Source: Actinopolyspora mzabensis (lineage in GTDB: Bacteria; Actinomycetota; Actinomycetes; Mycobacteriales; Pseudonocardiaceae). Taken from it: a stretch of 64,000 nucleotides of DNA. Shown piece by piece: positions 25,809 through 47,383 of the stretch. Where the stretch lies: assembly GCF_900101095.1 (NCBI RefSeq), contig NZ_FNFM01000001.1, forward strand, positions 1 through 64,000, written 5' to 3'. The notes beneath the pieces were generated by a model. It made no database searches, had not been told where the DNA came from, and was given only the letters and a program-made list of their open reading frames with translations. The translations under genes and the position numbers were made by a program. Position 1 is the stretch's first letter. Every line of letters begins with the position of its first letter.

Positions 25809-26615
25809 TCAGGCCGGCTCGCCCGTCGCGCTGAGTTCGTTGCCGAGGTCGGTGGCCAGCCGCCGCATCAGCGGCACCACGTCGTTGACGGCGATCCGTT
25901 TCATCCGCGCCTCGGGGCCACTGATCGAGATCGCCGAAGCCGCGGGTGCGTCCGGGATGGCCACCGCGTAGCAGCGCACCCCGACCTCCTGCTCCCCGTC
26001 GTCGAGGGCGTAGCCGAGCTCGCGGATGCGGGCGAGCTCCTCGCGCATGCCGTTGACGCTGGTGATGGTCCGCTCGGTCTGCGGGTGCATTCCGGTGCGG
26101 TTGAGTACCTGGGTGACGCTCTCCTCGGGCATGGTGGCCATCACGGCCTTGCCCACGGCCGTGGCGTGCGCGTCCACGCGTCTGCCGACCTCGGTGAACA
26201 TCCGCATCGAGTGCTGCGAGGGGACCTGCGAGACGTAGACGATCTGCGCCCCGTCGAGCACCGCCATGTTCGAGGTCTCCCCGGTCGCCTCGGTCAGCTC
26301 GGCCAGGTAGGGCCGGGCCCAGGAACCCAGGGTGCGGCTGGCGGTCTCGCCGAGCCGGATCAGGCTCGGGCCCAGCGCGTAACGGCGGGACGGCTGTTGC
26401 CGGGCATAGCCCGTGCGGACGAGCGTGCGCATGATGCGGTGAATGGTCGGCAGCGGCAGCGCCGAAGCCTCCGCCAGGTCGCTGAGGGCGACTTCGCCTC
26501 CCGCGTCGGCCATCAGCTCCAGCAGCTCGAAGGTGCGTTCGACCGACTGAACGCCGCCCTGCGTGGGTTTGGCGCGATCGGATCCGTTCCCGCCCGCGTC
26601 CTGTCCAGCCGCCAT
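25809..26615 (-). CDS. IclR-family regulator, AllR-like
   Basis: 268 residues: HTH (about 35-85: LSDLAEASALPLPTIHRIMR) and an IclR effector domain (about 95-260: VGRRVDAHATAVGKAVMA; GVRCYAVAIPDAP). It is divergent from malate synthase and at the edge of a full allantoin-glyoxylate locus. In Streptomyces coelicolor an IclR protein, AllR, controls allantoinase, glyoxylate carboligase and malate synthase genes, with allantoin/glyoxylate derivatives as effectors; this gene is the obvious counterpart. GAAGAGGAAC precedes the ATG. Confidence 0.88.
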   Translation of the reverse strand: MAAGQDAGGNGSDRAKPTQGGVQSVERTFELLELMADAGGEVALSDLAEASALPLPTIHRIMRTLVRTGYARQQPSRRYALGPSLIRLGETASRTLGSWARPYLAELTEATGETSNMAVLDGAQIVYVSQVPSQHSMRMFTEVGRRVDAHATAVGKAVMATMPEESVTQVLNRTGMHPQTERTITSVNGMREELARIRELGYALDDGEQEVGVRCYAVAIPDAPAASAISISGPEARMKRIAVNDVVPLMRRLATDLGNELSATGEPA

Positions 26616-28913: not shown

Positions 28914-30173
28914 GTGCCCAGTACTTCGTTGAACCGGGCCGATGTGGACGTTCGGCTGGCCCCGCTGGCCGATGTCGACGCGCGGATCGCCGCCAGGTTC
29001 CGCAGGACCGCGACCGCGCGCCAGCCGGTGCACACCTGCTACGTCCCGGCGGGCAGGGTGGACGCCGGTACCCTTCGGAACTGGGGAGACGAGGCGCTGG
29101 CGGCGCTCGACGAGCACGCCCCGAGCGCGGCGGACCTCGCCGGGGTCATCGACGTTTCCGAGCGCCGCGCCACCGAGGTACTGCCGCGAGTGCGGGCCAA
29201 GCTCCAGCGGTCCCCCGTGGAGGACCTCCGCATCGACTTCGAGGACGGCTACGGTGCGCCCGGCGACGAGGTGGAGGACGCCGACGCCGAGCGCACCGCC
29301 GGTGTGGTGGCCGAGTGGCTGCGGCAGGGCACGGCTCCCGACAACTTCGGGCTGCGCGTCAAGTCATTCGACGATCCCGAGCTGCGTGCCCGTTCGGTGC
29401 GCACGCTGGACGTCTTCCTCACCGAGCTGCTCGCCAGGCACGGTGAGCTGCCCGGAGGCTTCCTGCTGACCTTCCCCAAGGTCGTCGACGTGCGGCAGGT
29501 GGAGGCGTTCGTCGAGGTGTTGGAGCTGGTGGAGCGCACCCTGGGACTCGCCTCCGGTTCGCTGCGGTTCGAGATCCAGGTGGAAACCACCCAGTCCATC
29601 GTGGACACCGAGGGCAGGTTGGCGCTGCCGAGGTTCATCGGAGCGGGACGTGACCGGATCAGCGGGCTGCACTTCGGAACCTACGACTACACGGCGGGCT
29701 GCGGACTCACCGCCGCGCACCAGCACCTGGCGCACCGGGCCTGCGACTTCGCCAGACACGTGATGCAGGTGTCGGCGGCGGGGACCGGGATCTTCCTGTC
29801 CGACGGGTCGACCAACGTGCTGCCGGTGGGCGGGGCCGAACAGGTTCGGCACGGCTGGCGGACCCACTACGGGCTGGTGCGGCGTTCGTTGGAGCACGGC
29901 TTCTACCAGGGGTGGGACCTGCACCCGGCGCAGTTGGTCACGCGCTACGCGGCCGTGTTCGCCGAGTTCCGGGACTCCGCCGAGTCCGAGGCCGCTCGAC
30001 TGGCCGCCTACGTCTCCGCCACCGGCGGAGCGGTACTGGACGAGCCCGCCACCGCCAGGGCGCTTGCGGCGTCGTTCGTGCGGGCGCTGGACAACGGCGC
30101 CACCGACGCCGAGGAGGTCGCCCGGATGACCGGTGTTCCCGAGCCCGAGCTGCGCGAGCTCGGTCGGGTGTAG
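28914..30173 (+). CDS. DUF6986 aldolase/citrate-lyase-like protein
   Basis: 419 residues related to the HpcH/HpaI and CitE TIM-barrel families: metal- and CoA/oxoacid-binding segments DLRIDFEDGYG, FLLTFPKVVDVRQVEAF, RFEIQVETTQSIVD and GLHFGTYDYTAGCGL. Genes of this type sit next to malate synthase in several actinomycetes, but I know of no proven reaction; a C-C lyase acting on a glyoxylate- or malate-derived acid is likely. GTG at 28914 has GGAGGAGG 5 nt upstream. It is in the same direction as aceB but 232 bp away across a repeat element. Confidence 0.82.
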   Translation: MPSTSLNRADVDVRLAPLADVDARIAARFRRTATARQPVHTCYVPAGRVDAGTLRNWGDEALAALDEHAPSAADLAGVIDVSERRATEVLPRVRAKLQRSPVEDLRIDFEDGYGAPGDEVEDADAERTAGVVAEWLRQGTAPDNFGLRVKSFDDPELRARSVRTLDVFLTELLARHGELPGGFLLTFPKVVDVRQVEAFVEVLELVERTLGLASGSLRFEIQVETTQSIVDTEGRLALPRFIGAGRDRISGLHFGTYDYTAGCGLTAAHQHLAHRACDFARHVMQVSAAGTGIFLSDGSTNVLPVGGAEQVRHGWRTHYGLVRRSLEHGFYQGWDLHPAQLVTRYAAVFAEFRDSAESEAARLAAYVSATGGAVLDEPATARALAASFVRALDNGATDAEEVARMTGVPEPELRELGRV

Positions 30174-35533: not shown

Positions 35534-37060
35534 TCAGTTGGTGCGTTCGGTGTCCTGCGCGAGGCTGTTCGGTTTGGGAGGGGGAACCGGCCCTGCCTGC
35601 GTTCCGCCCGCACCCACCTCCTCGGGCTCGGCGGTGTCGACCGAGAGCGCCGCTGCTGCCGCCCCTTCCGGGGTCTCGTCCACTCCGGAAGCCGGGTGCT
35701 CGCCCTGCCCGGAGCCTCGTACCCCGTTGAACAGCAGGTTCAGCGCCAGCGCTGCCAGGCAGCCGGTGCTGATGCCGGAGTCCAGCACGGTACGCAGCGC
35801 GGCGGGGAAGTGCTCGTAGAAGTTCGGCGACACGATCGGGATCATGCCGACCCCCACCGCCCCCGCGACCACCAGCGAGTTCAGCGGGTCACCGAGATCC
35901 GCCTTGCCCAGCGTGCGCATCCCGCTGGAGGCGACCGAGCCGAACAGCACCAGCGCCGCACCACCCAGCACCGGCTGCGGTACCAGCGAGACCACGGCGC
36001 CGACGATCGGGAACAACCCGAGCATGATCAGCACGCCACCCGCGGCCGCCACGACGAACCGGCTCTTGACCCTGGTCAGCGCGACCAGCCCCACGTTCTG
36101 CGCGAACGCGCTGCAGGTGAATCCGCCGAACACCGCGCTCAGCGCGCTGCCCGCTCCGTCGGCGCGCAGCCCGGCGGCGATCGTCTGCTCATCGGCGGGG
36201 CGATCCACGATCTCGCCCAGCGCGATCATGTCCGCGGTGCTCTCCATCATCGCGACGAGCATCACGATGCAGATGGAGATCGTCGCCGTCAGGCTGAACG
36301 CCGGAGTGGCGAGTTCGAACGGCATGGGGACGTCGAAAATCGGGGCCTGCTCGAAGGTGGAGCTGTCCACCGCGCCCAGCGGCCACGCCACGAGGGTTCC
36401 GATGACCAGGCCGATCAGCAGGGCGATCCGGTTCCAGAATCCCTTGAGGAATCTGTTGAGCAGCAGTACCAGTACGAACGTTCCCGCACCGAGTCCGATC
36501 CGCAGCGGAGAGGCGAAGTCGGCGGCCTCGCTGTCGTTACCGGCTATCCAACCGATCGCGACGGGGAACAGCGACAGTCCGATCAGCGTGATCACGGTGC
36601 CGTTGACCAGCGGCGGGAAGAAGCGCACCAACCGGGAGAAGTATGGTGCGGCGATGAAGGCGAGGATCCCGGCGATCAACACCGAGCCGTACACTATGGA
36701 CAGTGCTTGTTGCTGGTCGTGCTGCGCGACGATGGCCAGGATCGGGGCCACGGAGCCGAAGGTGACGCCGTTGACGAACGGCATGCGCGCACCGACCCGC
36801 CAGACACCGACCGCCTGCAGCAGGGTCGCGATTCCCGCCGTCAGCAAGCTCGCGCCGATCAGCAGCGTCATTCGGAGCGGGTCCAGCCCCAATGCCTGGC
36901 CGATGATCAGTGGAGGCGCCACCACACCCGCGTACATCGCGGCGATGTGCTGCACACCGTAGGCCAGCAATTTGCCCGGCGGAAGTACCTCGTCCACCGG
37001 ATGGGAGTCCTGTCTTCCGTTTCTCGTGCCGCGATTGCGCCTACTGATGAACAGGGGCAT
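35534..37060 (-). CDS. NCS2/NAT-family urate/xanthine permease
   Basis: 508 residues with about 12-14 membrane helices. Family features: YGVQHIAAMYAGVVAPPLIIG near the N-terminus, the acidic motif in MMESTADMIALGEI and the NAT signature QNVGLVALTRV. The N-terminal and C-terminal (about 460-508) tails are hydrophilic. This family imports urate, xanthine or uracil with H+. Being next to uricase and on the same strand, it most likely imports uric acid. ATG at 37060 has AGGAG 6 nt upstream; GTG at 37078 is the alternative. Confidence 0.92.
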   Translation of the reverse strand: MPLFISRRNRGTRNGRQDSHPVDEVLPPGKLLAYGVQHIAAMYAGVVAPPLIIGQALGLDPLRMTLLIGASLLTAGIATLLQAVGVWRVGARMPFVNGVTFGSVAPILAIVAQHDQQQALSIVYGSVLIAGILAFIAAPYFSRLVRFFPPLVNGTVITLIGLSLFPVAIGWIAGNDSEAADFASPLRIGLGAGTFVLVLLLNRFLKGFWNRIALLIGLVIGTLVAWPLGAVDSSTFEQAPIFDVPMPFELATPAFSLTATISICIVMLVAMMESTADMIALGEIVDRPADEQTIAAGLRADGAGSALSAVFGGFTCSAFAQNVGLVALTRVKSRFVVAAAGGVLIMLGLFPIVGAVVSLVPQPVLGGAALVLFGSVASSGMRTLGKADLGDPLNSLVVAGAVGVGMIPIVSPNFYEHFPAALRTVLDSGISTGCLAALALNLLFNGVRGSGQGEHPASGVDETPEGAAAAALSVDTAEPEEVGAGGTQAGPVPPPKPNSLAQDTERTN

Positions 37061-37185
37061 TGGGTACTCCTGGGCCACGGAGGAAATATGGGTTAGCTAA
37101 ATCAATTCTCTGCGAAATCTCGAATCAGGCGTTGCCGTCGAGTAACGGTGTGGTTTCCGGAGAAAAAGGTGAGAGTTGAGACAAC

Positions 37186-37225: not shown

Positions 37226-38116
37226 TCAGAATTCCGGCAGGCTGTACCAGGCTCGCGGTGCCTCGTCGACGTCGTCCCGGGTCACGGTGCCCTCGATGAG
37301 TCCGTATGGGCGGTCGGCGGCGAAGAAAACCTCGTTCTCGTTCTGCATGCCGAACGGTTCCATGTCCACCAGGAAGTGATGTTTGTTGGGCAGCGACATT
37401 CGCACTTCGGCGACCTCGGGGTGCTTTTCCAGCACTGCCTTGCCCATTTCGTGCAAACTCTGCTGCAACGCGTAGCTGTGGGTGGTGGCGAATGTTTCGA
37501 GCATGGTTTCCCGGATCGAGCCGAAGCTCTTCGCCCAGTCCACATCGGTGTGCAGATAACGCCACCGTGCCGTGACCGCCGTCGCGAGAATCCGGTCCTC
37601 GGTCTCCCCCAGCGTGGTGAACCGGTCCTTGGGGTATCCCCAGAACTCCGAACCCGTGGACTTCAGCACGACCAGGTCCTTGAGTCCGGAGACCACGTGC
37701 GTCTCCGAACCGTCGATGGTCACCGCGGTGGTGCGCTTCTCGTCGCTGGACCTGGCGAACGAGTGGTCGTGCCCGGTTCCCGCGACCGGGATGCGTTCCC
37801 AGGCGTACTCCTCGACGAGGATGCGCGCGCCCTTGACCGGCTCCTGGGTGTCGATGAAGTGCCGTCCGAGCCGTACCGCGAAGTCCTCGATCTCACCGAC
37901 CGGCTGCTCCTTCGCCAAGCCGTAGACCGTGTTCTTCTGGGTGTCGGTCGGCAGCACCTTGGCGTTGTCACCGGTGTAGTGCGTGTCGTCGAAGTCGCCG
38001 CGCAGCGCGGTGCTGACGTTGAGGTCCTTGATGGTGTGCCTGCTGCTGCCCCGGTTGATCGTGACGATGCGGCACTCGGACTTGCCGTACTGGTTGGGGC
38101 CCATGACGATGCCCAT
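37226..38116 (-). CDS. uox: Urate oxidase (uricase)
   Basis: 296 residues; cofactor-free oxidation of urate to 5-hydroxyisourate. Conserved segments: NQYGKSECRIVTINR, the catalytic-Thr region (DDTHYTGDNAKVLPTDTQKN), FGLAKE-like VYGLAKEQP, LVVLKSTGSEFWGYPKDRF, TLGETEDRILATAV and the C-terminal LPNKHHFLVDMEPFG. ATG at 38116 has GAGGGAG about 11 nt upstream; ATG at 38104 is possible. It is third in the uraD-uraH-uox operon, 7 bp after uraH. Confidence 0.97.
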   Translation of the reverse strand: MGIVMGPNQYGKSECRIVTINRGSSRHTIKDLNVSTALRGDFDDTHYTGDNAKVLPTDTQKNTVYGLAKEQPVGEIEDFAVRLGRHFIDTQEPVKGARILVEEYAWERIPVAGTGHDHSFARSSDEKRTTAVTIDGSETHVVSGLKDLVVLKSTGSEFWGYPKDRFTTLGETEDRILATAVTARWRYLHTDVDWAKSFGSIRETMLETFATTHSYALQQSLHEMGKAVLEKHPEVAEVRMSLPNKHHFLVDMEPFGMQNENEVFFAADRPYGLIEGTVTRDDVDEAPRAWYSLPEF

Positions 38117-38123
38117 GAGCTGA

Positions 38124-38474
38124 TCAGCTCCCTCGGTATGTGGAATAGGCGAACGGGCTCAACAACAGCGGAACGTGGTAGTGCTGCTCCGCGTCCGCGA
38201 GGCGGAAGGTGATCTGCACCTGCGGATAGAAGGAGTCGACGCCCAGGCGTTGGAAATATGCTCCTGTTTCGAAGGTCAGCCGGTAGGTGCCTTCGGTCAG
38301 GCGGCTCGGTCCGAGCTGTTTGGCCCTGCCGTCGTCGTTGGTCACGGCTTCGCCGAGGGAGGTCCACCCGTCCCGCGTGGCCTGCTCCAGCGCGACCTCG
38401 ATCCCCGCGGCGGGCAGCCCCCGGGAGGAGTCCAGGACGTGTGTGGTGACGGCACTCGTGGTTGTCTCGCTCAC
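38124..38474 (-). CDS. uraH: 5-hydroxyisourate hydrolase (transthyretin-like)
   Basis: 116 residues of the transthyretin fold; hydrolyses 5-hydroxyisourate to OHCU. Hallmarks are TTHVLDSSRGLPAAG at the N-terminus, a central FYPQVQITF and the terminal YSTYRGS tetrapeptide that distinguishes the enzyme from transthyretin. GTG at 38474 overlaps the stop of the OHCU decarboxylase gene (GTGA), so expression is coupled. Confidence 0.96.
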   Translation of the reverse strand: MSETTTSAVTTHVLDSSRGLPAAGIEVALEQATRDGWTSLGEAVTNDDGRAKQLGPSRLTEGTYRLTFETGAYFQRLGVDSFYPQVQITFRLADAEQHYHVPLLLSPFAYSTYRGS

Positions 38475-38998
38475 GCTTCGATCACTCTCGCCAGCCGTAG
38501 TCTCGCGATCTTGCGCAGTTCGTCGGCGACGACGCGCAGTTCGGTCTCGGGGTCGTTGTCCAGTCGGGAACGCAGGATCTCCAGCAGCTCCGGTCCGCTG
38601 CGTCCGCTCGCGCACACCAGGTAGACGTGCCCGAAGCGGCGTTCGTACTCCTCGTTGGCCTCCGCCAGCTCCACGGCCAGCTTGGTGTCGTCCGCGTCGA
38701 CGCCGGACTGCTCCCGGCGCGACCACGAGGCCGAGGTGTCGTTGCCCGTGGATCGCTGGCCGATCCTCGGATGAGCGGCCAGCGCGGAGTGGATCTCCGA
38801 CTCGGTGAGCTCGTTCGCCGCGCGGTCGGCCGTTTCGTAGAGCTGGTTGTCGGACTCGTAGGGCCGGTTGTCGGCCAGCTCGTTCGCCCAGCGCTGCACA
38901 TCGAGGCAGGCCAGCAGTTTCTTGACGAGCTCGGGCCGGGGCAGGCTGTTGAGCCTGGCCAGTCCCGGGCCGGCGCCGGTGGAAGATGGTGCTGACAT
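38471..38998 (-). CDS. uraD: OHCU decarboxylase
   Basis: 175 residues; stereospecific decarboxylation of 2-oxo-4-hydroxy-4-carboxy-5-ureidoimidazoline to S-allantoin. Present: LARLNSLPRPELVKKLLACL, the AAHPRIGQR motif, SREQSGVD-like SRREQSGVDADD, and EYERRFGHVYLVCASGRS. ATG at 38998 has GTGGGGAAC 5 nt upstream. It is first gene of the uricase operon; its promoter region holds a TCAACA-N3-TGTTGA operator at 39100. Confidence 0.96.
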   Translation of the reverse strand: MSAPSSTGAGPGLARLNSLPRPELVKKLLACLDVQRWANELADNRPYESDNQLYETADRAANELTESEIHSALAAHPRIGQRSTGNDTSASWSRREQSGVDADDTKLAVELAEANEEYERRFGHVYLVCASGRSGPELLEILRSRLDNDPETELRVVADELRKIARLRLARVIEA

Positions 38999-39099
38999 CG
39001 GTGTTCCCCACGGATTCGCGTGGTTGTTCTCCTCGGGTTCACCCGCATGTTCCCTCGGAGCGGCTGGTGGCAAAAGTTAAGGCCGCTCAACCGAGGGTG

Positions 39100-39114
39100 T
39101 CAACACTTTGTTGA
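39100..39114. promoter_or_regulatory. Putative operator of the uric-acid operon
   Basis: TCAACACTTTGTTGA, an inverted repeat with 6-bp arms and 3-bp centre about 100 bp upstream of uraD. A near-identical site (TTCAACATTTTGTTGAA) lies upstream of allantoinase at 45970, implying one shared regulator, probably the AllR-like IclR protein or the thiamine-domain regulator. Confidence 0.6.
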
Positions 39115-39282
39115 AAGTTGCTGGTCCACGCTGTGCGTTCGCACAATGATCGCGGTTTTGGGGAGAGGTGTTCGGCCGAAACGCCCGATCCGGGACCACT
39201 GCGCGTGTCGGTGGCGCGCTACTGCGTTCGGAGCAGCGCGCCGACCGGGGCTGTGCGGCGTGTCCCCGTTCGGCGCGGTATC

Positions 39283-39298
39283 GATTTCTCGCGAAATC
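39283..39298 (-). repeat. 16-bp dispersed palindrome, copy 5
   Basis: GATTTCTCGCGAAATC, reverse orientation, flanked on the right by GCCGCGCC. It lies in the 415-bp gap (38999-39413) upstream of the uraD operon and downstream of the thiamine-domain regulator. Confidence 0.75.
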
Positions 39299-39413: not shown

Positions 39414-40034
39414 TCAGGAGCGTTCGCGGTTGAGGTAGTTGTAGACGGTGAAGCGGCTGACCCCGAGTTTCTTGGCCACCGATTCCACCGATTTGCGCAG
39501 CGTGAAGGCGCCGCGTTCCTCGAGTAGGCGCACGGCGCGCTGCTTGTCGGCCCGAGACAGGTCGGCCAGGCCCGCGCCGAGCTCGGTCTCGACCTGCGCT
39601 ATCAATCGATCCAGTGCGCTGGTGAGCTCCTCGTTCGGCATCCGTACCGCGACGGCGGGCACGCCGTCCCAGTAGAGCAGTACGTCATCGGATCTCCGTT
39701 CCTCGACCGGCACCGTGCTGGCGCCGATCCGGCTGAGCAGCGGCTGGATCGCGGAAGTCAGCGGATGCACGTGAAACCTCAACCGTCCCGGGGGGGTGTC
39801 GTCGATGCTGACCTGCAGGGTGATTCGGTCCGCCCCCGCGTCCAGGGTTCGCTCCAGCACCGCCGACAGGGCCGGAAGTAACACTGCCCGCTCCCCGCTG
39901 ATGGCCGTACCGAGCGGCCCGAACTCCGGCTCCAGCCCGGACTCGCGCAGCGCGTCCCGAGCCACGGCCGCGTGCGCGGGGGGATCGCCCTCGCCCTCGA
40001 ACGGTTCCGTCGTGAACTCGGCTCTGAGTCGCAT
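39414..40034 (-). CDS. Thiamine-binding-domain/HTH fusion regulator
   Basis: 206 residues. Residues 1-80 match the MTH1187/YkoF-type thiamine-binding domain: ESGLEPEFGPLGTAISGE, then LERTLDAGADRITLQVSID. Residues about 81-155 are uncharacterised (DVLLYWDGVPAVAVRMPNEE). Residues about 162-204 form the helix-turn-helix found at the end of YheO-like regulators (LSRADKQRAVRLLEERGAF; VAKKLGVSRFTVYNYLNRE). It is divergent from hyi-glxR-gcl-glxK; gcl encodes a ThDP enzyme. I infer a regulator that reads thiamine (or a related ligand) status. ATG at 40034 has GGAGG at 6 nt. Confidence 0.8.
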   Translation of the reverse strand: MRLRAEFTTEPFEGEGDPPAHAAVARDALRESGLEPEFGPLGTAISGERAVLLPALSAVLERTLDAGADRITLQVSIDDTPPGRLRFHVHPLTSAIQPLLSRIGASTVPVEERRSDDVLLYWDGVPAVAVRMPNEELTSALDRLIAQVETELGAGLADLSRADKQRAVRLLEERGAFTLRKSVESVAKKLGVSRFTVYNYLNRERS

Positions 40035-40150
40035 CGAGCACCTCCGCTGCCGTCCGTCCCCGTCGTACGCCTCATCACGGTAGCCCGCCGGTGCGACGGG
40101 TGTTGACCCTGTCGTGGACACTCAGTATTCTATCGCTGTACGAAATAAAA

Positions 40151-40167
40151 ATTTCACTATGTGAAAT
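40151..40167. promoter_or_regulatory. Putative operator upstream of hyi
   Basis: ATTTCACTATGTGAAAT is a perfect inverted repeat (7-bp arms, TAT centre) in the 158-bp divergent gap between the thiamine-domain regulator and hydroxypyruvate isomerase. It differs from the TCAACA operator, so a second regulator, most simply the divergent gene's product, is expected to bind. Confidence 0.6.
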
Positions 40168-40192
40168 ACGGGTGAATCAAGGGGGCACACGG

Positions 40193-40990
40193 ATGCATCG
40201 CTTCCCGTACGCAGTCAACACGTCGATCCTGTTCACCGAGCTCGACGTGTTGTCCCGGCCCGCAGCCGCCAAGGCAGCCGGTTTCGACGCCATCGAGTTC
40301 TGGTGGCCGTTCTCCGAGGCCGTTCCGGGCGACGGTGAGGTCGACAAGTTCGTCCGCGCCGTCGAGGACGCCGGTGTCTCCCTGGTCGGGTTGAACTTCT
40401 TCGCCGGCGACATGCCCGCCGGGGACCGTGGCGTGCTCTCGCACCCCGCCAGGTCCGCCGAGTTCCGCGACAACGTCGACGTGGCGGTGGGAATCGGCGC
40501 ACGGCTGGGCTGCACCGCCTTCAACGCCCTCTACGGCAACCGGATCGAGGGCGTACAGCCCGCCGAGCAGGACGCCGCGGCCGTGGAGAACCTCACCGCC
40601 GCGGCGAAGGGAGCCGCGCGCGTCGACGGCACCGTGCTGATCGAGCCGGTCAGCGGCACCCCCAGCTATCCGCTCAAGAAGGCCGACGACGCGGTCGCCG
40701 TCATCGACCGGGTACGTGAATCGGGCGGTGTGGACAATCTGCGGCTGCTGTTCGACCTGTACCACCTGATCGCCAACGGTGACGATCCGGCAGCCGCCAT
40801 CGACAACCACGCCGCTCGGATCGGGCACGTCCAGATCGCCGACGCCCCCGGTCGAAACGAGCCCGGCACCGGCCAGGTGGACTTCGACCACTACTTCGCC
40901 AAGCTGCAGCGGGCCGGCTATCGCGGGCACGTGGCGCTGGAGTACAAGCCCAGCGGCACCAGCGCCGACAGCTTCGGCTGGATCTATTGA
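40193..40990 (+). CDS. hyi: Hydroxypyruvate isomerase
   Basis: 265-residue AP-endonuclease-2-like TIM barrel that interconverts hydroxypyruvate and tartronate semialdehyde. Family segments: NTSILFTELDVLSRPAAAKA, FDAIEFWWPF, GLNFFAGDMPAGDRGVLSHP, LLFDLYHLIANGDD, GHVQIADAPGRNEPGTG and HVALEYKPSG with metal-binding Glu/Asp/His residues. AAGGGGG lies 8 nt before the ATG. It is first of the rightward glyoxylate-to-phosphoglycerate set. Confidence 0.95.
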   Translation: MHRFPYAVNTSILFTELDVLSRPAAAKAAGFDAIEFWWPFSEAVPGDGEVDKFVRAVEDAGVSLVGLNFFAGDMPAGDRGVLSHPARSAEFRDNVDVAVGIGARLGCTAFNALYGNRIEGVQPAEQDAAAVENLTAAAKGAARVDGTVLIEPVSGTPSYPLKKADDAVAVIDRVRESGGVDNLRLLFDLYHLIANGDDPAAAIDNHAARIGHVQIADAPGRNEPGTGQVDFDHYFAKLQRAGYRGHVALEYKPSGTSADSFGWIY

Positions 40991-41010
40991 GCGTGACTAC
41001 GTCGGCTCTG

Positions 41011-41154
41011 GCGCGGTGGTCGGGTAGCCGTCACGTGAGTCGGCGCCTTGCCGCGTTGGGCCGGCTCTTGAGTAGCGACCTACGCGGCGAGCGGCCCTGC
41101 CTCGCAATGCATCCGACTCACGCACCGGGGACACCCGCGCTGCGACCCGCACGG
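41011..41154 (+). repeat. Dispersed repeat element, family B copy 1
   Basis: About 140 bp closely matching 45561-45705 in the same orientation: TCACGTGAGTSGGCGCCTTG, TTGAGTAGCGACCTACG, GGCGAGCGGCC, ATGCATCCG, CTCACGC and CGCTGCGAC in order. It contains the TAGCGACCTAC core of family A. Confidence 0.75.
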
Positions 41155-41183
41155 CCGCGTCCCGACAGCGGCCCCGGCGCGGC

Positions 41184-41199
41184 GATTTCGCGAGAAATC
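41184..41199 (+). repeat. 16-bp dispersed palindrome, copy 6
   Basis: Perfect consensus GATTTCGCGAGAAATC preceded by CCGGCGCGGC, between hyi and glxR, 95 bp from copy 7. Confidence 0.75.
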
Positions 41200-41278
41200 G
41201 ACGCCGCACGGGAGAACCCGCTGCGGTGCGGGCTGCGAGGGTGGTCGGAGTTCGGCTTCGCACCGCCGAGGGCGCGGC

Positions 41279-41294
41279 GATTTCGCGAGAAATT
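41279..41294 (+). repeat. 16-bp dispersed palindrome, copy 7
   Basis: GATTTCGCGAGAAATT preceded by GGGCGCGGC, 49 bp upstream of the glxR start. It forms a direct pair with copy 6. Confidence 0.75.
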
Positions 41295-41342
41295 GACGGA
41301 GAGAGTGAACTCGAGGACTTCAGTGACGAGAGGGGAAACGCG

Positions 41343-42221
41343 ATGACCAAGGTAGGGTTCGTCGGACTCGGCATCATGGGTGGCCCGATGGCCGCCAACC
41401 TCGTCGAGGCCGGGTACGAGGTAACCGGTTACAACCGCAGCAGCGCCAAGGTGGAGAAACTGGTCGACGCGGGCGGCAAGGGAGCGAGCACCATCGCCGA
41501 GGCCGTCTCCGACGCCGAGGTGATCGTGACCATGCTGCCCGACTCCCCGGACGTCGAGACGGCGGTGCTCGGCGACGACGGCGTGCTGGCGCACGCCCCG
41601 GCCGGTGCGCTGCTGATCGACTGCAGCACCATCCGTCCCGAGGTCTCGCGCAAGGTCGCCGAACAGGCGGACAAGCAGGGGGTCCGCGCGCTGGACGCCC
41701 CCGTCAGCGGTGGGGAGCAGGGCGCCATCGACGGTGCACTGTCCATCATGGTCGGAGGCGAGAGCGAGACGTTCCGGGCGGCGTCCGGGGTGTTCGACGT
41801 GGTCGGCAAAACCGTGGTGCACGTCGGCCCGGCCGGGTCCGGTCAGACGGTCAAGGCCGCCAACCAGCTCATCGTGGCGGGCAACATCGCGCTCGTCGGC
41901 GAGGCGCTGACCTTCCTGGAGGCGCAGGGAGTCGACACCGAGTCGGCGTTCCAGGTGCTCGGCGGCGGACTAGCGGGCAGCAAGGTGCTCGACGCCAAGA
42001 ACAAGGGCATGCGCGAACGCAGCTTCAAGCCGGGATTCCGCATCGAACTGCACCACAAGGACCTGGGCATTCTGCAGAGCGCGGCCCGCGAGTCCGGCGT
42101 CGCCACCCCCGTGGGCAGCCTCGTCGCGCAGCTCATGGCCGCGGCCGTGGCCCAGGGGGACGGCTCGCTGGATCACTCCGGGCTGTTCCGGCAGATCGCC
42201 CGCCTCAGCGGCAGGGAATGA
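41343..42221 (+). CDS. glxR: 2-hydroxy-3-oxopropionate (tartronate semialdehyde) reductase
   Basis: 292-residue beta-hydroxyacid dehydrogenase; reduces tartronate semialdehyde to D-glycerate with NAD(P)H. N-terminal VGFVGLGIMGGPMAANL is the Rossmann motif and signature; the substrate-binding DAPVSGGEQGAIDGALSIMV and the catalytic Lys in GQTVKAANQLIVAGN are intact. GAGGGG precedes the ATG by 7 nt. It lies between hyi and gcl in the same direction. Confidence 0.95.
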   Translation: MTKVGFVGLGIMGGPMAANLVEAGYEVTGYNRSSAKVEKLVDAGGKGASTIAEAVSDAEVIVTMLPDSPDVETAVLGDDGVLAHAPAGALLIDCSTIRPEVSRKVAEQADKQGVRALDAPVSGGEQGAIDGALSIMVGGESETFRAASGVFDVVGKTVVHVGPAGSGQTVKAANQLIVAGNIALVGEALTFLEAQGVDTESAFQVLGGGLAGSKVLDAKNKGMRERSFKPGFRIELHHKDLGILQSAARESGVATPVGSLVAQLMAAAVAQGDGSLDHSGLFRQIARLSGRE

Positions 42222-42519
42222 CCAGCGGGCGAACCCCAGCGGGCGAACCACTGTCGCACGATTTCCGAGGGAAGGGTGGCACCAACGCCGCCAAGCATCC
42301 GGGCCACCCACCCGTCGGAACAACCCCGGTGCGTGCGTACGGACTCCGGACCGTCGCCGCGTACCGCGCGGAGCGGAGACCTCCGCATCCCACACGGCTC
42401 GGACGGCCGCCGTCGTCCCGGCCCCACACCGAGTGTCACCACGGCAGGTTCGCACTCCGCGGCACCGTCGAGCAACCGTGCCGCCGCGAACCCGCCGCAT
42501 CGGAGAGGTCGTGCATACC
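42222..42519. other. Gap between glxR and gcl
   Basis: 298 bp with no convincing gene. A short tandem repeat (CAGCGGGCGAACC twice) lies at its left end. It could hold a separate gcl promoter, but no clear hexamers are seen. Confidence 0.4.
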
Positions 42520-44214
42520 ATGCCGAAGGTTCCCGTCATGCAGGCTGTCGTCGACGTCCTCGAATCCGAGGGAGTCGACGTCGCGTTCGGCTGCCCCGGG
42601 GCGGCCATCCTGCCGCTGTACGCGGCGCTGGAGCACCGCGACATCGAGCACCTGACCGTGCGCCACGAGGAGGGCGCCACCCACATGGCAGACGGGTGGT
42701 CCCGCACCAACGGCAACGTGGGTGTCGCCATCGGGACCTCCGGTCCTGCGGGCACCAACATGATCACCGGTCTCTACACCGCCCAGGCCGATTCCGTGCC
42801 GATCCTGTGCATCACAGGTCAGGCGGTTTCCGACAAGCTGCACCAGGAGGCCTTCCAGGCGGTCGACATCGTCGACATCGCCAAACCCGTCACCAAATGG
42901 GCGGTGCAGGTGAAGGAAGCCGCCCAGGCGCCGTGGATCTTCCGGGAGGCTTTCCGCGTCGCCCGCTCCGGCAGGCAGGGGCCGGTGCTGATCGACCTGC
43001 CCCTCGACGTGCAGCGGCAGGAGATCGAATGGGACCCGAGCATCGACGCGCCGCTGCCGATTCACCGGGTGGAGCCGCACCAACCCCGGGTGGAACGCGC
43101 GCTGGACATGCTGCAGCGGGCCGAACGTCCGCTGATCCTCTCCGGGGGCGGCGTGGTGCTGGGCGAGGCGCACGAGCGGTTGCGCGAACTCGCCGAACTG
43201 CTGGGCATCCCGGTGCAGGTCACCCTGATGGGCAAGGGGTCCTTCCCCGAGGATCACGAACTCTGGGCGGGTATGACCGGTATCCAGACCAGCCAGCGCT
43301 ACGGGAACCAGTCCTTCATGGAGTCCGACCTGGTGCTGGCGCTGGGTGCGCGCTTCGGTGACCGGCACACCGGAGCGTTGGACGTCTACCGCGGGGATCG
43401 CCGGTTCATCCACGTCGACATCGAGCCCACTCAGCTGGGCAAGGTGTTCGGTCCCGATCTGGGCATCGTCTCCGACACCGGGCCGTTCCTGAACGCGCTG
43501 CTGGAAACCGCTCGACGCCGTTCGGCCGCACCCCGGTTCCACTCCTGGGTGGACCGGGTCAACGAGCTCAAGAAGACCCACACCAGGCCGGACGACTACG
43601 ACAGCGTGCCGATCAAGGCCCCCAGGGTGTTCCGGGAGATCAACGAGATCTTCGGGCCGGACACCTACTTCACCACCGCGATCGGGCTGTACCAGATCTG
43701 GTCCGGGCAGTTCCAACGTACCCACAAACCCAGGCACTACCAGGTGTGCGGCCAGGCCGGTCCGCTCGGCTGGGAGATTCCCGCCGCGATCGGGGTCAAG
43801 TCGGCCGAGCCCTCGGCCGAGGTCGTCTCGGTGGTGGGGGACTACTCCTTCCAGTTCCTCGTGGAGGAGCTGGCCGTGGCCGCGCAGTACGACGTCGGTT
43901 TCGTGATCATCATGCTCAACAACGAGTACCTCGGGCTGATTCGCATGGCCGAACAGGGCTACGACATGAACACCGAGGTCGACCTGCACTACGACGAGCA
44001 CGGCACGGACAACGTGAAGGTGATGGAGGCCTACGGCTGTTCCGGGCGTCGCGTGCTCGATCCCGCCGAACTCGGCGAGACCATCGAGTGGGCGCGCAAG
44101 GAAGCGGTGGCCACCAGCAGGCCGGTGCTTGTCGAGGTGATGATCGAGCGCGAGGCCAACACCGCCAACGGGGTCCGTATCGACGCGATGAACGAGCCGG
44201 AACCGGTCGGCTGA
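42520..44214 (+). CDS. gcl: Glyoxylate carboligase (tartronate-semialdehyde synthase)
   Basis: 564-residue ThDP- and FAD-family enzyme that joins two glyoxylates to tartronate semialdehyde and CO2. Gcl-specific segments: GTSGPAGTNMITGLYTAQAD, SVPILCITGQAVSDKLHQE, AVDIVDIAKPVTKWAV and the ThDP/Mg motif VVGDYSFQFLVEELAVAAQY through LNNEYLGLI. At the position where E. coli Gcl is known for Val51 instead of the canonical ThDP-activating Glu, this protein reads VRHEEGATH, i.e. Glu50. ATG at 42520 has GGAGAGG 11 nt upstream. It sits downstream of hyi and glxR and before glycerate kinase. Confidence 0.93.
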   Translation: MPKVPVMQAVVDVLESEGVDVAFGCPGAAILPLYAALEHRDIEHLTVRHEEGATHMADGWSRTNGNVGVAIGTSGPAGTNMITGLYTAQADSVPILCITGQAVSDKLHQEAFQAVDIVDIAKPVTKWAVQVKEAAQAPWIFREAFRVARSGRQGPVLIDLPLDVQRQEIEWDPSIDAPLPIHRVEPHQPRVERALDMLQRAERPLILSGGGVVLGEAHERLRELAELLGIPVQVTLMGKGSFPEDHELWAGMTGIQTSQRYGNQSFMESDLVLALGARFGDRHTGALDVYRGDRRFIHVDIEPTQLGKVFGPDLGIVSDTGPFLNALLETARRRSAAPRFHSWVDRVNELKKTHTRPDDYDSVPIKAPRVFREINEIFGPDTYFTTAIGLYQIWSGQFQRTHKPRHYQVCGQAGPLGWEIPAAIGVKSAEPSAEVVSVVGDYSFQFLVEELAVAAQYDVGFVIIMLNNEYLGLIRMAEQGYDMNTEVDLHYDEHGTDNVKVMEAYGCSGRRVLDPAELGETIEWARKEAVATSRPVLVEVMIEREANTANGVRIDAMNEPEPVG

Positions 44215-44351
44215 TCGGTTCCCCGCTTCGGGTCGGGCCACTCCGTCCGGCCGTGACTACCCGTACCGCCCGCCGCCCCGGGCCACCTCCGATCGGCCCG
44301 CGGCGCGGCACGGGTTCCGAGACCGGGGTCGACCGGACGGTCGACGCCAGG

Positions 44352-44395
44352 GGTGCCCTCTGCCTCGGTGCCGGGCTTAACTGGCAGGGGGCACC
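44352..44395. other. Hairpin between gcl and glycerate kinase
   Basis: GGTGCCCTCTGCC (44352-44364) pairs with GGCAGGGGGCACC (44383-44395) with one mismatch and an 18-nt loop. No T tract follows, so it may be an mRNA-stabilising or attenuating structure 27 bp before the glycerate kinase start. Confidence 0.55.
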
Positions 44396-44421
44396 CTCTC
44401 TTCGAAGATGCGGAGCGTGTT

Positions 44422-45546
44422 GTGACTGGTCATGTTCTCGTGGCACCGGACAAGTTCAAGGGGTCGCTGACCGCGGCCGAGGTCGCCGAGGCGGTCACCG
44501 CGGGGCTGCGCGGCAGGATGCCCGCGGTCGCGGTCCGCGGCAGCCCGGTCGCAGACGGGGGCGACGGCACCGTGCGGGCAGCGCTGGCCACCGGGCGGTT
44601 CGAACGTTCGCTCGTGCGGGTGACCGGGCCGACCGGTAGGAGAGTGGACGCGGAGATCGCGGTCGGCGAGACGACCGCGGTCGTCGAGCTCGCCTCGGCC
44701 TCCGGGCTCGCGCTGCTCGCGCCCGGCGAGTTCGATCCGCTGCGGGCCTCCAGCCACGGGACCGGGGAGCTGATCGTCGCCGCGCTGGACGCCGGGGTGA
44801 GCGGGATCGTGCTCGGTGTCGGCGGCAGTGCCTGCACCGACGGTGGGGCGGGAATGCTCACCGCGTTGGGAGCCCGGCTCAGCGATGCGGCCGGGAATCC
44901 GCTCTCCCCCGGAGGTGGGGGACTCGAACGGATCGCCGAGGCCGATCTGTCCGGTTTGGACCCGCGTCTGGCAGACGTGGACCTGGTGTTGGCATCCGAT
45001 GTGGACAACCCGCTGTGTGGTTCCTCCGGCGCCGCGCATGTCTACGGCCCCCAGAAGGGCGCGAGTGCGGAGCAGGTGCGGCGGCTCGATGGCGCACTGG
45101 AGCGGTTCGCCGAGGTGATCGGCCGCGCCACCGGGGAGTCGGCCGCCGACCGTCCCGGCGCCGGTGCGGCGGGTGGCGTGGGGTACGGAGCCATGACCGC
45201 GCTGTCCGCGAGGTTCCGCTCCGGCAGCGACGTGGTGCTCGAACTCGTCGACTTCGACCGCGATCTGGCTGGTGCGGCGCTGGTGGTGACCGGGGAGGGC
45301 GCGCTGGACGAACAGACGCTGCACGGCAAGGTTCCCGCGGCCGTGGCCGCGCGTGCCGCCGAGGCGGGTGTGCCCACCGTGGCCGTGGCGGGCAAGTGCT
45401 CGTTGTCCCGGCAACGTCTGCGGGACGGCGGTTTCACGGCGGTCTACGCCTTGGCGCACCTGCAGCCCGACCCCGCCCGCTCCATCGAGGGGGCCGCCCA
45501 CCTCCTCCAGCGAGTGGGCGAGCACATCGCCGACGACTTTCTGTGA
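44422..45546 (+). CDS. glxK: Glycerate 2-kinase (GlxK/GarK family)
   Basis: 374-residue kinase that phosphorylates D-glycerate with ATP, delivering carbon to glycolysis. Typical segments: VLVAPDKFKGSLTAAEVAEAV, GSPVADGGDGTV, LGVGGSACTDGGAGMLTALG, VLASDVDNPLCG with YGPQKGAS, and VVTGEGALDEQTLHGKVP. GTG at 44422 (VTGHVLVAPDKF) was chosen as the family-like start. It is the terminal step of the hyi-glxR-gcl-glxK set. Confidence 0.95.
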   Translation: MTGHVLVAPDKFKGSLTAAEVAEAVTAGLRGRMPAVAVRGSPVADGGDGTVRAALATGRFERSLVRVTGPTGRRVDAEIAVGETTAVVELASASGLALLAPGEFDPLRASSHGTGELIVAALDAGVSGIVLGVGGSACTDGGAGMLTALGARLSDAAGNPLSPGGGGLERIAEADLSGLDPRLADVDLVLASDVDNPLCGSSGAAHVYGPQKGASAEQVRRLDGALERFAEVIGRATGESAADRPGAGAAGGVGYGAMTALSARFRSGSDVVLELVDFDRDLAGAALVVTGEGALDEQTLHGKVPAAVAARAAEAGVPTVAVAGKCSLSRQRLRDGGFTAVYALAHLQPDPARSIEGAAHLLQRVGEHIADDFL

Positions 45547-45735: not shown

Positions 45736-45751
45736 AATTTCGCGAGAAATC
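45736..45751 (+). repeat. 16-bp dispersed palindrome, copy 8
   Basis: AATTTCGCGAGAAATC followed by GACG. With copy 9 it forms an 18-bp perfect inverted repeat about 35 bp apart, so the pair can fold into one long hairpin. Confidence 0.75.
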
Positions 45752-45787
45752 GACGCCCACGAGCAGCGGTGGGGCACCGGCTCCGTC

Positions 45788-45803
45788 GATTTCTCGCGAA
45801 ATC
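45788..45803 (-). repeat. 16-bp dispersed palindrome, copy 9
   Basis: GATTTCTCGCGAAATC in reverse orientation, preceded by CGTC; inverted partner of copy 8. Confidence 0.75.
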
Positions 45804-45969: not shown

Positions 45970-45986
45970 TTCAACATTTTGTTGAA
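45970..45986. promoter_or_regulatory. Putative operator of the allantoinase operon
   Basis: TTCAACATTTTGTTGAA, a perfect inverted repeat (7-bp arms, TTT centre) ending 23 bp before the allantoinase start. It is the same motif as at 39100 upstream of uraD, and its place suggests repression by promoter blocking. Confidence 0.65.
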
Positions 45987-46009: not shown

Positions 46010-47383
46010 GTGGTCGAACCCGTCAACTCCTCGGCTCCGGAATTCGACGTCGTGTTCCGCGCGCGGAGGTTGATCGGCCCTAACGGGGAGGTATCCGGCA
46101 GTGTGGGCGTCCGGGAGGGACGCATCGCGGCCGTCGAAGCCCTCGACGCCCCGATGCGGGGTGCCCGCACCGTCGAGCTCGCCGAGGACGAGGTCCTGCT
46201 CCCCGGCATGGTGGACAGCCACGTGCACGTCAACGATCCCGGCCGCTCCGAGTGGGAGGGGTTCCCCACCGCGACCCGCGCGGCCGCCGAGGGCGGCATC
46301 ACCACGATCGTCGACATGCCGCTGAACTGCCTGCCGCCGACCATCGACGCGGAATCACTGGAGGTCAAGCGCAAGGTCGCCGAGAACAACGTGCACGTCG
46401 ACGTCGGCTTCTGGGGCGGCGCCGTGCACGGCAACCTCGACGAACTGCGCGGGCTGCACGAGAGCGGTGTCTACGGGTTCAAGTGCTTCCTGCTCCACTC
46501 GGGGGTGGACGAGTTCCCGCCGCTGGACTCCACCGAGCTGGAGCGGGCGCTGCGCATCGTCGCGGAGCTGGACGCGACGATGATCGTGCACGCGGAGGAC
46601 TCCGACGCCATCGAGCACGCCCCGAGCGCGCACGGTGAGAACTACCGCGACTTCCTGCACTCCCGGCCGCGCGGCGCCGAGAACATGGCCATCGCCCAGG
46701 TGCTCGAACTCGCCCGGCGAACCGGGGCCCGCGTGCACATCCTGCACCTGTCCTCCTCCGACGCGCTCCCGATGATCGCCTCGGCACGTGCCGACGGGGT
46801 GCGGGTGACCGTGGAGACCTGTCCGCACTACCTGTCCTTCACCTCCGAGGAGATCCCGGACGGCGCCACCCAGTTCAAGTGCTGCCCGCCGGTGCGGGAG
46901 GCCGCCAACCGCGAGCTGCTGTGGCGAGGACTGGCCGACGGGCTCATCGACTGCGTGGTCAGTGACCACTCGCCGTGCACTCCGGAGCTCAAGCGGCTGG
47001 ACATCGGCGACTTCGGCGTCGCCTGGGGAGGGGTCTCCAGCCTGCAACTCGGACTGTCGGCGGTGTGGAGCCAGGCCAGGATCCGGGGCTTCGAGCTGAG
47101 CGACGTCGTGTCCTGGATGTCGTCCGGCCCGGCCCGGGTCTCCGGGCTGCGCGACAAGGGAGCCCTCGCGGTCGGTTCCCACGCCGATCTGTGCGTTTTC
47201 GCGCCGGACGAGGCCTACGTGGTCGACGCGGAGAAGCTCCAGCACCGCAACGCGGTGAGCGCCTACCACGGCCGAGCTCTGGCCGGAGTGGTGCGCTCGA
47301 CCTGGCTGCGCGGTACACCGATCGCCGGTCCGGAAGCCGGGGACGCCCCCACGGGCAAGTTGCTCAACCGAGGAGAAGCATGA
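46010..47383 (+). CDS. allB: Allantoinase
   Basis: 457-residue amidohydrolase that opens allantoin to allantoate. Metal-site residues: HVH in VDSHVHVNDPG (H71, H73), the carboxylated Lys K158 in GVYGFKCFLLHSG, His in MIVHAEDSD and HILHLSSSDA, and Asp in VVSDHSPCTP. GTG at 46010 has GGGAGG 8 nt upstream. The stop overlaps the allantoicase ATG (ATGA). The operator at 45970 sits at the promoter. Confidence 0.97.
   Translation: MVEPVNSSAPEFDVVFRARRLIGPNGEVSGSVGVREGRIAAVEALDAPMRGARTVELAEDEVLLPGMVDSHVHVNDPGRSEWEGFPTATRAAAEGGITTIVDMPLNCLPPTIDAESLEVKRKVAENNVHVDVGFWGGAVHGNLDELRGLHESGVYGFKCFLLHSGVDEFPPLDSTELERALRIVAELDATMIVHAEDSDAIEHAPSAHGENYRDFLHSRPRGAENMAIAQVLELARRTGARVHILHLSSSDALPMIASARADGVRVTVETCPHYLSFTSEEIPDGATQFKCCPPVREAANRELLWRGLADGLIDCVVSDHSPCTPELKRLDIGDFGVAWGGVSSLQLGLSAVWSQARIRGFELSDVVSWMSSGPARVSGLRDKGALAVGSHADLCVFAPDEAYVVDAEKLQHRNAVSAYHGRALAGVVRSTWLRGTPIAGPEAGDAPTGKLLNRGEA

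Follow-up and report, generated by a model that had tools for sequence, protein, structure and literature searches.

Regulators of the YheO/DauR type carry an HTH_22 DNA-binding domain with an N-terminal PAS_6 domain, and archaeal ThiR, a protein-based regulator of vitamin B1, consists of a ThiN-type domain and an HTH. The allantoin pathway of Streptomyces coelicolor is reportedly under the IclR-family regulator AllR. For urate, an excerpt of PMC5487221 describes HucR at the uricase promoter, from which it is released by urate. Here we analysed a 64-kb stretch of DNA from Actinopolyspora mzabensis (the window, taken as a whole), in which one locus likely encodes a repressor of urate catabolism; it would be built from a Thiamine_BP-type sensor and HTH_22, bind TTCAACAnnnTGTTGAA and be released by a purine metabolite. 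We give about even chances to the wider proposal that a thiamine-binding-type fold has turned urate/purine sensor, acting in many lineages as a stand-alone subunit with an HTH partner and unrelated to the MarR-type HucR and PecS. Open-licence PMC articles yielded no description of the regulator or of the operator sequence, and the regulator is likely new to the literature.

The regulator lies on the minus strand at 39414-40034, where the window contains an open frame of 206 aa with the following parts.

39795..40034, minus strand: Thiamine_BP (DUF77/MTH1187-type) domain, residues 1-80 (Pfam 34.4 bits; homologue L017 model and Foldseek).
39417..39770, minus strand: DNA-binding subunit, taken from the GTG as in the split form (HTH_22 78.5 bits; model pLDDT 88.9).
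About 39615-39770, minus strand: middle segment of the DNA-binding subunit.
39429-39614, minus strand: HTH_22 part of the DNA-binding subunit.
39790..39796, no strand: seven-G run (C on the coding strand), one base longer in the window (alignment, frames).
39779..39781, minus strand: TGA that ends the Thiamine_BP gene of congeners, out of frame in the window (alignment).

Pfam places Thiamine_BP (PF01910) at residues 8-81 with 34.4 bits against a cut-off of 24.9, and HTH_22 (PF13309) at residues 141-202 with 76.8 bits against a cut-off of 29.6. The profile search therefore recovered both the N-terminal thiamine-binding domain and the C-terminal HTH that a preliminary description had read from the letters, and the gene layout bears out its statement that the regulator is divergent from hyi, glxR, gcl and glxK. 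The MTH1187 equivalog model TIGR00106 gave the 206-aa protein 20.8 bits, below its cut-off of 54.7, and the sensor part is thus a divergent member of the family. PAS_6 was absent among the 17 Pfam matches of the 206-aa protein at E <= 10, and no MarR model was among its Pfam matches; for the split HTH protein, PAS_6 was absent among the 25 of 39 families listed at E <= 1. This split-form HTH protein of the window scores 78.5 bits on HTH_22, a domain recovered throughout the split alignment (37/37), and Thiamine_BP was found in 24/24 short fusions (E <= 1). The A. mzabensis genome contains a single copy of the regulator gene and, in addition, a distinct Thiamine_BP protein at 103 bits.

In the nine other Actinopolyspora genomes (9/9) the two domains are consecutive separate genes: a Thiamine_BP gene of 84 aa that terminates at a TGA of its own and, after it, an HTH frame, the start of which we set at GTG; three Actinopolyspora loci of the relatives scan are also split and may be of the same species. 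The alignment shows the window alone to be one base longer than its congeners, within the seven-G run at 39790-39796, and through this extra base both frames run together. Given nine split congeners and a difference of a single homopolymer base, the fusion in the window probably results either from an error of assembly or from a mutation private to this strain, both of which fit the sequence alone. Of the fusion put forward in the preliminary description, the two domains are thus real, and a natural fusion in this strain is not upheld.

Genuine shorter fusions occur in Amycolatopsis, Nocardioides, Kribbella and others. The genome scan found at least 541 relatives and the best 80 loci were kept; all locus counts leave out L001, the window itself, and the tree has 79 rows, L005 being left out as its second piece was not recovered. 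When rows with both pieces in one frame are called fused, 42/79 rows are fused and 37/79 are split among these best 80 of at least 541 relatives. The fused rows, each with one short protein of usually 155-173 aa that is devoid of the middle segment, are from Amycolatopsis, Prauserella, Kutzneria, Nocardioides, Kribbella, Pedococcus/Phycicoccus and one unclassified genome, and the split rows are from Actinopolyspora, Saccharopolyspora, Halosaccharopolyspora, Streptomycetaceae, Nocardia and one Saccharomonospora. The tree (139 columns, poorly resolved in places) requires at least three switches between the fused and split forms. That these two parts are joined in some lineages and adjacent in others suggests joint action of the sensor and the HTH. 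It appears doubtful that the A. mzabensis strain has, in the 206-aa fusion, a genuinely new form of the gene; the frame is open in the assembly and short fusions are found elsewhere, but the 9/9 split congeners and the single-base homopolymer difference speak against it, as does the middle segment (about residues 89-140), which is part of the HTH gene in the split form and is missing from the aligned short fusions. A literature lead on programmed frameshifting or phase variation of DUF77 was dropped, as the matches concerned DUF772.

Downstream of the regulator, on the same strand, lie the genes of urate oxidation, and the glyoxylate and allantoin genes lie on the other side.

38471..38998, minus strand: OHCU decarboxylase gene (NCBIfam PRK13798, 197 bits).
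38124..38465, minus strand: HIU hydrolase gene, start approximate (tblastn neighbourhood).
37226..38116, minus strand: uricase, factor-independent urate hydroxylase (TIGR03383, 357 bits).
35534..37078, minus strand: NCS2 xanthine-type permease (TIGR03173, 482 bits).
40193..45546, plus strand: glyoxylate branch hyi, glxR, gcl, glxK, with no operator in front (tblastn, profiles, site search).
46010..47383, plus strand: allantoinase AllB (TIGR03178, 570 bits).

The start of the OHCU decarboxylase gene was chosen downstream of the -10 element, the longest frame starting at 39073. The neighbourhoods of the relatives were surveyed with the window proteins by tblastn in 6-kb flanks, some of which were ended by contig ends. 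Among the best 80 of at least 541 loci, uricase was near the regulator in 80/80 (on its strand in 79), HIU hydrolase in 80/80 and OHCU decarboxylase in 79/80, each of the three being on the regulator's strand except in one locus. The regulator's constant neighbour is the urate-oxidation operon. In the same best 80 of at least 541 loci, gcl was present in 27, hyi in 48 and allantoinase in 55, and the nearest tested upstream gene was a divergent hyi at less than 600 nt in 42/80 and a divergent allantoinase at less than 600 nt in 24/80. In the window, the gcl product (42520-44214) scores 675 bits on TIGR01504, below the cut-off of 711, and 887 bits on the glyoxylate carboligase model NF008431, and belongs to a divergent Gcl group.

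A palindrome, TTCAACAAAnTGTTGAC, is found between the HTH gene and the first urate gene, where it overlaps promoter-like elements.

39100..39115, minus strand: proposed operator TTCAACAAAGTGTTGA of the urate operon (site search, co-occurrence).
39098-39103, minus strand: -35-like TTGACA, overlapped by the proposed operator.
39074-39079, minus strand: -10-like TAACTT, downstream of the proposed operator.
45970..45986, plus strand: another exact copy of the operator, TTCAACATTTTGTTGAA, in front of allantoinase (site search).

With up to two mismatches the window has four palindrome matches, which correspond to two palindromic places, against 0.23 expected. Across the 5.0-Mb genome the exact palindrome is found only at the urate operon and before allantoinase, and five one-mismatch copies lie elsewhere. 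Among the best 80 of at least 541 loci, the exact core TTCAACAnnnTGTTGA lies between the regulator and the first urate gene in 77/80 and the palindrome is exact or has one mismatch in 79/80, with the single mismatch in L024 and L057 and a run of N at its position in L078; these counts include five loci (L028, L036, L042, L052, L080) in which the OHCU tblastn match extends over the palindrome, which is still past the HTH stop. The next tested gene after the palindrome is uricase in three loci and HIU hydrolase in one, instead of OHCU decarboxylase. The palindrome overlaps TTGAC, and TAnnnT follows 17-18 nt on in 70/80 sites (79 of the best 80 of at least 541 loci plus the window; spacers of 15-20 tried), which indicates that it covers the -35 box. 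In 15/80 loci, all from Streptomycetaceae (best 80 of at least 541), a one-mismatch copy is located 66-138 nt before the sensor gene, and this suggests that the regulator controls its own gene in this family.

Two repeat-like patterns were noted during these searches. Palindromes of the GATTTCGCGAGAAATC type were seen by eye in intergenic DNA of the window at about 39283-39298, 45737-45752 and 45788-45803, and stretches resembling GATTTCGCGAGAAATC also occur inside reading frames, so that it looks like a dispersed repeat. G309 has 27 copies of the reversed control pattern on each strand (0 or 1 in the other family genomes listed), and these copies probably belong to a repeat element.

The palindrome and the regulator co-occur across genomes. 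In a class sample of 296 genomes, 31 have the sensor domain, all 31 of them with uricase, and 132 have uricase overall; the exact site is at the uricase operon in 29/31 carriers, 27 of the 31 being from one genus, versus 0/101 uricase genomes without the sensor domain. The distance from site to uricase in these carriers is 255-1136 nt, and in 9 of the 101 sensor-less uricase genomes an exact site lies away from the operon, either on a different contig or at a distance of over 250 kb. A family sample of 200 genomes contains 82 carriers, 81 of them with uricase, and 165 genomes with uricase overall; here the exact site is at the uricase operon in 79/82 carriers versus 0/84 uricase genomes without the sensor domain, 7/84 of which have an exact site elsewhere. 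Pooled, with the two shared genomes counted once, the exact core is present in 107/112 carriers and 0/184 sensor-less uricase genomes; the carriers represent 21 genera within which genomes are not independent, the carrier calls come from 19 or 28 candidates scored per genome, so that a divergent sensor could escape, and the counts are of exact sites, one-mismatch sites among regulator-less genomes having been sought in G134 only.

The five carriers without an exact site comprise three with one mismatch (G213, G290, G485), one with an assembly gap (G465) and one in which the operon is lost (G454). In G454 (L128, 6215-7652) the urate enzyme genes are gone and the regulator is kept beside a shortened permease match, which looks like operon loss. 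The regulators of G391 and G477 are separated from uricase by over 1.6 Mb and the exact site is still at the uricase operon, and in G086 and G262 the urate operon is displaced and the site has moved along; thus, the site follows the operon and not the position of the regulator. G134, which has uricase and belongs to the genus that supplies most of the class carriers, contains a remnant of the sensor gene upstream of its urate genes (L116, 4898-4996; a 33-residue match), and no palindrome with up to two mismatches was found in the 8 kb around these genes. G409 has the site before its urate genes, and around the distant site of G487 none of the tested genes was found within 10 kb.

Ten second sites outside the urate operon, hand-chosen and all from class-sample genomes, were examined. 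Eight of the ten precede a catalase-like frame, all in genus g23, which we take to be Streptomyces on account of the order of its genes and of how large a part of the sample it makes up; one of these frames (L112) scores 479 bits on the catalase HPII model, below that model's cut-off of 1102, and the remaining seven were assigned by their common N-terminus. In G042 the gene behind the second site encodes FAD_binding_5, CO_deh_flav_C and Fer2_2 domains, a set like that of xanthine dehydrogenases; in G086 (g23) it encodes a DUF6986 protein. Uricase produces hydrogen peroxide, and a catalase therefore fits a urate regulon. Some genomes have further exact copies, for example G050:C1:4898224 and G042:C5:140848, and such copies might lie outside the urate regulon. 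DUF6986 proteins are encoded at 28914-30173 of the window and at 1045-2376 of L125 (G086), one of them with similarity to HpcH/HpaI aldolases; in G086 the exact operator is 4 nt from the longest frame of the gene. DUF6986 could possibly be an unrecognised step of the purine-glyoxylate pathway.

From the domains, the linkage to the operon, the conserved palindrome with the genes behind it and its coupling to the regulator, all of which are visible at the level of sequence, we infer the following mechanism. Without inducer the HTH part would bind the palindrome TTCAACAnnnTGTTGAA directly and block the -35 box, in the split form presumably as a complex of two subunits. Rising urate or a related purine would bind the sensor part and the protein would leave the DNA, upon which permease, uricase, HIU hydrolase and OHCU decarboxylase would be made. 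Urate is our first candidate for the ligand, a guess from the regulon, and it is likewise the regulon that makes recruitment of the thiamine-binding-type domain as a sensor of a purine metabolite probable. The regulon would vary by lineage, with allantoinase added in Actinopolyspora and catalase, which would clear the peroxide made by uricase, added in g23. Coverage of the -35 box is the usual position of a repressor, and as the palindrome covers that of the urate operon, repression is the most likely sign of control.

The same regulon could be under an activator, or the sensor could answer to something other than a purine, for instance nitrogen or peroxide. Excerpts of two papers point in this direction, with urate genes that answer nitrogen limitation in Mycobacterium smegmatis (PMC4617892) and, in S. 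coelicolor, hpxQ, hpxT and hpxO (SCO6209-SCO6211) that respond to the oxidative-stress system SenS-SenR (PMC4991794); the latter excerpt makes no mention of a gene pair upstream. The catalase in the regulon would also agree with such a signal. The site covers the -35 box itself, which argues against this alternative, and we regard it as unlikely.

Less probable still is that the palindrome belongs to another regulator and that the Thiamine_BP/HTH pair does something else. Binding of the protein to the palindrome is deduced, further regulators of purine genes are conceivable, and the window has a gene of the IclR family at 25809-26615. Against this stand the co-occurrence in 107/112 versus 0/184 genomes, which includes the cases of unlinked regulator and operon, and the position of IclR-type sites. 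The relevant features of the window are as follows.

40151..40167, plus strand: palindrome ATTTCACTATGTGAAAT of IclR type within the hyi promoter, probably bound by a different regulator (0 mismatches to the consensus).
40131..40145, plus strand: weaker tandem IclR-like site, centre 21 nt off (one mismatch to a looser pattern of our own).
25809..26615, minus strand: IclR-family regulator, neighbour of malate synthase A and candidate to act at the hyi site (BhcR, IclR and AllR models, all below cut-offs).

The IclR-family consensus is given in an excerpt of PMC8222616 as WTTYCRYW3RYGRAAW, with tandem sites 18-22 nt apart. With up to two mismatches it fits only the hyi promoter in the window and not the urate palindrome, and the hyi promoter (40034-40193) contains no operator copy at up to two mismatches. 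The preliminary description had named the hyi promoter as the target; the exact IclR-type match there argues against the hyi palindrome as the regulator's site. In Nocardia, Nocardioides and Kribbella an IclR-like site, seen by eye, lies downstream of the urate palindrome, which likewise speaks against assigning the hyi palindrome to the regulator. Just 3' of the palindrome, at the urate promoter, such a site was noted by eye in L017, L022, L046, L049, L054, L072 and L077, and suggests dual control of the urate promoter in these seven loci.

The structure of the sensor was approached through a model of the homologue L017, not of the window protein, which has a pLDDT of 90 and a pTM of 0.55, so that its domain placement is uncertain. 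Foldseek returned 12 PDB matches at E <= 0.001, 11 of which are named DUF77, MTH1187, MJ1052 or TM0486; the twelfth, SP2199 (2ibo), has no family in its name. On this model, the sensor fold is predicted to be of the DUF77 type. The split HTH protein of the window, modelled with a pLDDT of 88.9 and with its middle segment included, had no PDB match at E <= 0.001. Residues E6, E10 and H21 are invariant in 30/30 aligned sensor domains. E6 is common to the sensor domains and MTH1187, and E10 and H21 have no counterpart in those PDB relatives whose alignment reaches them (two relatives and four, respectively). The residue before a conserved Gly is Glu in four aligned PDB relatives and in the genome's other Thiamine_BP protein, and is Glu in 5/30 sensor rows. 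These differences hint at an altered sensor pocket.

The A. mzabensis genome has, away from this locus, three TPP riboswitches above the Rfam cut-off and one just under it, and these three together with the 103-bit Thiamine_BP protein indicate that thiamine has other readers in this genome. Gcl-type matches of at least 650 bits, a threshold that a gap divides from weaker matches, occur in 57/296 class genomes, 28 of the 57 being without the regulator. Such a match is present in 29/31 class carriers and was not found in G143 and G213, where 4/6 candidates were scored in each. The preliminary description had proposed thiamine sensing for the ThDP-dependent Gcl and a link to the gcl neighbourhood; the regulator instead tracks uricase (80/80 against 27/80 for gcl, best 80 of at least 541 loci), with its operator at purine genes and not at hyi or gcl. 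It is very improbable that thiamine or a relative is the ligand and that the regulator acts at the hyi promoter to couple Gcl to the supply of the vitamin, for although Thiamine_BP membership above cut-off, the resemblance of the homologue model to TM0486, the proximity of gcl (27/80) and of a divergent hyi within 600 nt (42/80; best 80 of at least 541) and the gcl-type match in 29/31 class carriers favour it, the palindrome is at purine genes, two carriers have no such match and 28/57 gcl genomes no regulator, Glu precedes the conserved Gly in only 5/30 rows, and the invariant E10 and H21 are unmatched in the covering PDB relatives.

The repressor proposed here offers a testable regulator of urate catabolism for actinobacteria, presumably including Streptomyces, with a defined candidate DNA site, where urate control of this kind has so far been illustrated by MarR proteins. 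The existence of fused as well as split forms is a natural experiment on how a sensor acts as a separate subunit. If the ligand is a purine, the ligand has changed within a family labelled thiamine-binding, which would caution against deriving function from that label and would provide a new scaffold for urate biosensors.

The closest parallel in function is with HucR and PecS, urate-sensing repressors of the MarR family; our proposal resembles HucR in urate-released repression at a uricase promoter, by analogy and not by relationship. Both are MarR winged-helix proteins, whereas here the sensor and DNA-binding parts are separate domains or proteins. The MTH1187/YkoF-like proteins (DUF77, Thiamine_BP) have the Pfam match and the fold of the homologue model in common with the sensor part, but the DUF77-type PDB matches are about 90-110 residues long, which leaves no room for an HTH, and here the sensor is coupled to HTH_22 and to urate genes. 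The YheO/DauR-type regulators share the HTH_22 DNA-binding domain, but their PAS_6 domain was not found in the regulator described here. AllR acts on a neighbouring branch, and the IclR-family consensus fits the hyi promoter; both the protein family and the DNA site are different. ThiR resembles the regulator described here in that its sensor is fused to an HTH, but its sensor domain is a different one, and both exact operator copies in the A. mzabensis genome are located at purine genes.
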